Of a DNA stretch of 37,757 nucleotides, positions 35,208-36,538 are shown piece by piece; position 1 is the stretch's first letter; the number at the start of each line of letters is the position of its first letter. Origin of the DNA: an uncultured Treponema sp. (GTDB taxonomy: Bacteria; Spirochaetota; Spirochaetia; Treponematales; Treponemataceae). The notes below the pieces were generated by a model. The model was not told the DNA's origin and ran no database searches. It was given only the letters and a program-made list of their open reading frames with translations. The stretch is taken from contig CAMPAL010000011.1 of assembly GCA_946631855.1 (NCBI GenBank), positions 1 through 37,757 of the forward strand, written 5' to 3'. The position numbers and the translations under genes were made by a program.

Positions 35208-36224
35208 TTATTCTTTTGTGATTGTGTAGAAGGCTGGTTTTTTATGCCCCTGACCATCAAACAAAAGTGGTGCATCTGTACGTCCTTGAACAGGGAAGTT
35301 ATTTTTCCATGAAAAATTGTCTGTAACACCCCATAAAAGAACATCTTTTAAATATCCTTTTTCAGCTTCTTTCTTAAAGCAGTTAAAAATTTCCTGATAG
35401 CGTTTAGCCTGTTCTTCCAGAATTTCTACAGTTACTTCTTTTTTTGCTTCTTTATCATCTTTGTAGATAGAAACATCCATTTCTGTAACAATTACATTCA
35501 ATCCGAGCTGACCAAATTTTTCTATTGTTTCTTCAATTTGTGATACTGGAGGATAATCTACAGAAATGTGCATTTGTAAGCCAACTGTATCAACTGGTAC
35601 ACCGCGGTCTAACATGCCTTTCACCAGTTTATACATTCCTTCTCGTTTTTCAGGAATAATTTCCAGATTGTAATCATTTATAACAAGACTGGAATTTGGA
35701 AAGGCTTTTTTTGCCCAATGGAAGGCCTTGTCTATATATTCAGGTCCAATTATCTGATACCACAAGGAATGTTCACTTCCATCACGTAAATCAAAATTTT
35801 TATCAGAAATGCATTCATTTACAACATCAACAGAAGAAACATATTTATGATATCTTCTGCCAACTTTGAAAATATATTTTTTCAGGCGTTTTTCAAGTTT
35901 TTCTTTTGAAACAAGACTTCCATCCCGGTTTTTAAAAATCCACTCAGGAGATTGATTATGCCAGACAAGAGTATGCCAGCGAACAGCCTTGTTGTACTTT
36001 CTTGCAAATTTTATAAAGGCATCGGAGCGTGCAAAGTTATATTTGCCAGGTTTTGGATAAACTCCAACCATTTTTGTGTCATTTTCGCAAACGATAAGAT
36101 TAAAATGATCTTTTACCAGTTGAATATCAGGAAAGCTTGCTTCATCTTTTGTATAAAAGAGCCAGTTTAAGGCAGCGCCTACTCTAAAATAATTATCATA
36201 ATAATTGCTTAATGAATTACACAT
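35208..36224 (-). CDS. GH10 endo-beta-1,4-xylanase, cytoplasmic
   Basis: A single GH10 barrel of 338 residues: FRVGAALNW, RWHTLVWHNQSPEW, acid/base Glu137 in VVNECISD, NDYNLE, GLQMHI, nucleophile Glu248 in VTEMDVSI and LLWGVTDNFSW. There is no signal peptide or binding module, so it probably trims imported xylo-oligosaccharides, as intracellular GH10 enzymes do. No Shine-Dalgarno is visible before the ATG (GCCCT). A CATAAT lies six bases upstream, but a better promoter is found at 36256-36284. lysA follows on the same strand, with its own promoter. Confidence 0.93.
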   Translation of the reverse strand: MCNSLSNYYDNYFRVGAALNWLFYTKDEASFPDIQLVKDHFNLIVCENDTKMVGVYPKPGKYNFARSDAFIKFARKYNKAVRWHTLVWHNQSPEWIFKNRDGSLVSKEKLEKRLKKYIFKVGRRYHKYVSSVDVVNECISDKNFDLRDGSEHSLWYQIIGPEYIDKAFHWAKKAFPNSSLVINDYNLEIIPEKREGMYKLVKGMLDRGVPVDTVGLQMHISVDYPPVSQIEETIEKFGQLGLNVIVTEMDVSIYKDDKEAKKEVTVEILEEQAKRYQEIFNCFKKEAEKGYLKDVLLWGVTDNFSWKNNFPVQGRTDAPLLFDGQGHKKPAFYTITKE

Positions 36225-36297: not shown

Positions 36298-36325
36298 AAA
36301 AAAAGAAGCCGCCTGTTTCGGCGGC
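36298..36325 (-). terminator. Terminator of the RNA upstream of the xylanase
   Basis: GCCGCC (36320-36325) and GGCGGC (36308-36313) with a GAAACA loop, then TTC and seven Ts on the minus strand. Confidence 0.85.
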
Positions 36326-36400
36326 CTGTTTGATGCTAAAGTTCACGTAGAACTGCACCTTAAAATATATCCAGCGATTAGCAGCTGGTAGCTTTAATGT

Positions 36401-36448
36401 CTAACGTTTAGCCACGTCCTGGCGTGTTGTCTTTGTCGGAAATTGCAT
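36401..36448 (-). CDS. Small ORF (15 aa) with perfect Shine-Dalgarno inside the candidate RNA
   Basis: AGGAGG (36454-36459) lies five bases before the ATG. The peptide is MQFPTKTTRQDVAKR, then TAG. It is short, basic and hydrophilic, with no membrane segment and no run of one amino acid that would mark a classical attenuator. Translation is plausible from the Shine-Dalgarno alone; function is unknown. Confidence 0.4.
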   Translation of the reverse strand: MQFPTKTTRQDVAKR

Positions 36449-36510
36449 TATTGCCTCCTCTACAAGCAGCCGGTAGCCGTCCTTATCTCGGTTCCCTAAC
36501 CACGTTTTTA

Positions 36511-36538
36511 ATAATACCATGGATTTCTTATAAGGCAA
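36511..36538 (-). promoter_or_regulatory. Candidate promoter of the RNA upstream of the xylanase
   Basis: On the minus strand TTGCCT (36533-36538), 16 bases, TATTAT (36511-36516). A second TTGACA lies farther upstream at 36585-36590, with a poorer -10. Confidence 0.5.

Follow-up and report, generated by a model that had tools for sequence, protein, structure and literature searches.

A conserved RNA family of gut and rumen Treponema with covarying hairpins and a selected 15-codon reading frame

A short minus-strand unit that precedes a xylanase gene in an uncultured Treponema raises the question of whether it serves this gene as a leader or is an RNA gene in its own right, and whether its RNA, its peptide, or the act of translation matters. 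The window, that is, the whole stretch of 37,757 nucleotides analyzed here, is one contig of a Treponema-like genome of 217 contigs. The initial annotation had described a promoter-like pair, a structured region, an AGGAGG, a 15-codon open reading frame (ORF), a terminator, and a separate xylanase promoter, and all of these are present on the minus strand as described. The promoter (36511..36538) combines a -35 element, TTGCCT (36538-36533), a 16-nt spacer, and a TG-extended -10 element, TATTAT (36516-36511), and transcription is predicted to start near 36504 on the same strand. There follow hairpin P1 of the 5' domain (36466..36503), with the apical loop AGAUAAGGA; the Shine-Dalgarno (SD) sequence AGGAGG (36459-36454), whose GGAGG is invariant or nearly so across the RNA family; the ORF MQFPTKTTRQDVAKR (36401..36448), with its ATG at 36448-36446 and the stop codon TAG at 36403-36401; hairpin P3 (GCCA-GGACG-TGGC, 36411..36423), within the latter half of the ORF, close to its stop codon; hairpin P4 (CCAGC-loop-GCTGG, 36371..36388), directly 3' of the ORF; hairpin P5 (GGTGC...GCATC with an inner stem, 36332..36359); and the intrinsic terminator (36298..36327), formed by a stem (36327-36306) and a T tract (36305-36298). 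Bounded by the promoter (36538-36511) and the terminator (36327-36298), the RNA unit on the minus strand has a length of ~205 nt. The GH10 xylanase (PF00331, 3e-93) is encoded on the same strand, its ATG lying at 36224 and a promoter-like pair of its own at 36284-36256. The folding energy of the single window sequence is ordinary (z = -1.17), and the case for an RNA rests on comparison.

Such comparison confirmed that the RNA gene is real, above chance. Two sister species (loci L001 and L002) share 100% identity in the 5' part and in the SD-ORF part and 96% in the 3' part, while identity amounts to 59-65% in the flanking gaps, 72% in the xylanase gene, and 90% in the DUF4867 gene, the unit thus being conserved more strongly than both neighboring genes. 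The promoter pair was found in 56 of 57 divergent members, against 12.6 expected by shuffling, preceding the SD sequence by 49.4 ± 2.0 nt, and the hairpin and T tract of the terminator were seen in full-length family members. BLAST added 18 more genomes from the genus, though a few hits were due to chance (the matches L018 and L019 were discarded as such). A covariance model built on the 5'-terminal 90 nt detected the RNA in 98 of the 200 genomes sampled from the genus, and a broader model detected it in 105 of 274 family genomes, of which 97 belong to the same genus (out of the 200) and the other 8 to two sister genera; in the genus genome lost between the two models (G185), the hit was a chance match within apparent coding sequence. 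The hit L145 was likewise discarded as a chance match. Extending the search to 296 genomes drawn across the phylum added three weak matches only (E values of 0.001-0.003), which were excluded from the count, and no convincing member was found outside the genus and the two sister genera in the family and phylum searches. Judged by these models, roughly one in two of the species sampled from the gut and rumen Treponema group carries the RNA, with T. bryantii, T. saccharophilum, T. ruminis, and T. zioleckii among the named hosts alongside many rumen and gut assemblies. The usual copy number is one, with four copies in T. zioleckii (G028) and in genome G125.

No Rfam 15 family reached its gathering score anywhere in the window, and relaxed thresholds gave chance matches only; viral contigs, plasmids, and phages held no match to the RNA, and a phage or plasmid origin was set aside. 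The literature searches made returned no report of this RNA, and the main text of a human-microbiome survey names only ribosomal-protein leaders for Treponema (PMC8040213). The RNA is thus a conserved family that is new as far as the searched libraries show, its general kind being already known.

The covariation of four hairpins, P1, P3, P4, and P5, greatly exceeds that of shuffled and slid controls. Across 78 distinct 5' sequences, 94.0% of the cells were paired, with a covariation score of 0.429 versus 0.206 for shuffles and ≤0.081 for slid controls, and across 44 full-length sequences the score was 0.448 versus 0.221 shuffled and ≤0.103 slid, it being understood that a model drawn by eye guided the fitting of alignment A4 and so leans its counts towards the structure, and that the plain MAFFT alignment A5 gave the same result, its P4 and P5 columns having been picked by scanning A5 itself. 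Pairs changed on both sides occurred in each of the six helices counted in the full-length alignment, those of P1 included, and the stems of P4 are compensatory. The apical loop of P1 is nearly invariant across the family (AGAUGAGGA). A hairpin over the SD sequence, P2, was not counted as conserved: it is weak (about -1 to -4 kcal/mol), shows no both-sided changes, and is lost in the MKLQ lineage. The P4 loop often reads GG(C/U)UAA or AGUUAA despite a variable stem, which may point to a role in binding or in a tertiary contact. The near repeats CTACCGGCTGCT and CTACCAGCTGCT, which correspond to the 3' strand of P1 and the 5' strand of P4, are present in this genome as had been noted, but they are not a feature of the family, the best 12-mer identity being 7.67 versus 7.07 in shuffled sequences, and the alternative pairing around the ORF that had been proposed for them finds no support.

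The reading frame was likewise found to be conserved in relatives. Among 60 divergent members, related sequences whose counts are not independent events and which were chosen by a pattern requiring the start region, leaving out the lineages with an MRSP start, the first frame-0 stop falls at codon 13-16 in 50, compared with 10/60 and 6/60 in the other frames and a shuffled mean of 8.8 (maximum of 17 in 200 trials). The position of the first stop is 15.6 ± 3.0 codons in frame 0, versus 17.2 ± 12.8 in frame +1 and 17.3 ± 13.6 in frame +2, and TAA (28), TAG (21), and TGA (11) are all in use. The N-terminus of the peptide is conserved as MQ[F/I/Y]PTK: codon 2 alternates between CAA and CAG, codon 6 between AAA and AAG, and codon 3 encodes F, I, or Y, while the fourfold sites of codons 4 and 5 (CCG and ACA) hardly vary, which indicates that part of the MQFPTK conservation acts at the RNA level. 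An in-frame 3-nt variant, one codon shorter and starting MLPTK..., occurs in six members of the nonredundant set, and one sister genus reads MKLQTETHNLHEVIIR, again by an in-frame 3-nt difference. At L131, L139, L146, L147, and L165 to L167, the SD sequence and AUG are kept and the ORF ends at codon 7 or 8 (MRSPEI*, MRSPEIR*, and MRSPNI*), whereas L135, with the same MRSP-type start, reads 18 codons. The stops at codon 7 weaken the case for a function of the peptide and may hint that ribosome loading matters more. On these comparisons, translation of the ORF appears to be selected, and the peptide may or may not be its purpose.

The foremost alternative is that the unit is simply a small mRNA, in which the 14-16-aa peptide is what matters and the hairpins only stabilize the message or tune its translation. 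The selected frame and stop position, the conserved N-terminus, and a promoter, SD sequence, and terminator that together make a minimal gene would all suit such a message. We nevertheless regard it as unlikely for several reasons: (i) P1, P4, and P5 covary outside the ORF; (ii) the fourfold sites of codons 4 and 5 are frozen; (iii) the peptide shrinks to 6 aa in two lineages in which the RNA and the SD sequence persist; and (iv) the second half of the peptide tracks the stem sequence of P3 and not a protein pattern. The frozen fourfold sites, as part of an invariant RNA stretch around the start codon, lend themselves to the opposite explanation, a purely noncoding structured RNA whose SD sequence and AUG are kept as RNA, e.g., for binding 16S rRNA or a regulator, and the P1 loop does carry a further SD-like AGGA. 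We consider this quite improbable, since the stop position is constrained in frame 0 only, all three stop codons are used, and the indels near the start are of 3 nt. Titration of CsrA, with the AGGA of the P1 loop and the SD sequence as putative binding sites, would draw on the csrA gene found in 28 of 30 relatives, the genome of the window included, and on a GGA that is nearly invariant in the P1 apical loop; it is held to be more improbable again, GGA not being clearly enriched (4.40 versus 3.75 in shuffled sequences) and only a single apical loop carrying it consistently, unlike in CsrB/RsmZ-type RNAs.

The genomic surroundings bear on the remaining question, that of a leader. In a survey of ~80 loci, some of which are the same place counted twice, the largest cluster sharing a neighbor comprised 8 loci, and, of the next genes downstream, 49 shared the strand of the unit and 31 were opposite to it (n = 80); in many genomes, what follows the end of the unit is a convergent gene. 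When paralogs from a single genome are compared, the match covers ~250-255 bp only, from promoter to terminator, and visual inspection showed no terminal inverted repeats. A cis leader that would control termination ahead of the xylanase through translation of the small ORF, as had been suggested at the outset, is largely refuted as a general rule and very improbable indeed: although the xylanase begins ~75 nt past the terminator on the same strand in the window and in one sister species, the neighbors elsewhere differ and lie on either strand, the unit duplicates without them, and the near repeats are not conserved.

Some further observations concern individual copies. Two T. zioleckii copies (L080, 3690-3951, and L094, 3930-4191) share 98.5% identity across 262 bp, a match that runs exactly from promoter to terminator, whereas their flanks are unrelated and no terminal repeats were seen; it would seem that the RNA gene moves, or undergoes conversion, as a bare unit. 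Copies also lie at contig edges, namely, at the ends of G125:C10 and at the starts of G213:C269 and C64, as would be expected if near-identical copies break assemblies, and copy numbers may hence be underestimated. One T. zioleckii copy (L023, on G028:C6) lies ~240 nt from a divergent gene whose protein start is Cas9-like (MKTLGLDIGTNSIGWGIV...), probably by coincidence, as this neighbor was absent at the other loci examined. An integron attC site, an idea arising from a GTTAGAC motif, was dismissed, no matching partner site being seen by eye.

Taken together, the unshared neighbors, the bare-unit paralogs, and a conservation above that of the neighboring genes argue for a trans-acting gene, and the reading that we favor, and hold to be probable, is a free-standing small RNA gene of ~205 nt whose product would be both structured and translated, in the manner of dual-function small RNAs (sRNAs). 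With moderate confidence, we propose that it works like such an RNA, belonging to the class in part only: its own promoter and terminator are found at the sequence level and a translated small ORF by comparison (frame-specific stop and in-frame indels). Of the dual-function sRNA suggested earlier, the translated small RNA thus stands, as a stand-alone unit with covarying hairpins and a selected frame, while base-pairing and a working peptide are candidate roles; for pairing with a target mRNA in particular, the covariation speaks for selection at the RNA level only. RNA polymerase would start at the extended -10 promoter of the unit and end at its intrinsic terminator, and ribosomes would load on the conserved SD sequence, read ~15 codons through P3, and stop right behind it. 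P1, P4, and P5, with the invariant RNA around the start codon, would form a regulatory body acting in trans, and the melting of P3 by the passing ribosome could, speculatively, be the control step. A more specific proposal, possible yet doubtful, is that ribosome loading sets the activity of the RNA, passage through P3 switching its forms, with a peptide free to shrink to six residues and no detectable Hfq; it rests on the SD sequence, the start codon, and a stop being kept. A search of 30 relatives turned up no Hfq gene, which makes the usual chaperone-dependent pairing unlikely.

Apart from Borrelia, spirochaetes have had their small RNAs little explored, and a well-delimited, strongly covarying RNA with a selected 15-codon frame in cultured species (T. 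bryantii, T. saccharophilum, T. ruminis, and T. zioleckii) offers a handle on posttranscriptional control. It also offers a case in which genetics can tell RNA function from translation, and the short-ORF lineages provide a natural test of what selection keeps, the peptide or the act of translation.

Among known systems, a type I toxin was rejected, since a short hydrophobic peptide would be expected and peptides such as that of the window are hydrophilic by inspection, and the 6S RNA model (RF00013) had no match in 21 relatives, although a diverged 6S RNA may be missed. With CsrB/RsmZ-type RNAs the family shares a GGA in an apical loop and hosts that possess csrA; it differs in its unenriched GGA, its single consistent loop site, and its ORF. 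Phe_leader had the best E value among the weak Rfam matches (20.6 bits versus a cutoff of 55), the aligned part being essentially the terminator hairpin; a short ORF followed by a terminator is indeed common to leader-peptide attenuators and the Treponema RNA, but the latter has no conserved same-strand downstream gene. VcdRP of Vibrio cholerae, which encodes the 29-aa small protein VcdP (PMC8672173), likewise joins an RNA and a small protein on one small transcript; its base-pairing element lies at its 3' end, its protein is larger, and no sequence relationship was found. Spot 42 of E. coli is a dual-function sRNA encoding SpfP, of 15 aa (PMC11955535). The Treponema RNA differs from it in having no sequence or Rfam match, in hosts in which Hfq was not found, in the covarying hairpin inside its ORF, and in pairing that is here only a candidate activity, and resembles it in being predicted to form a small independent transcript with a translated frame of 15 codons.
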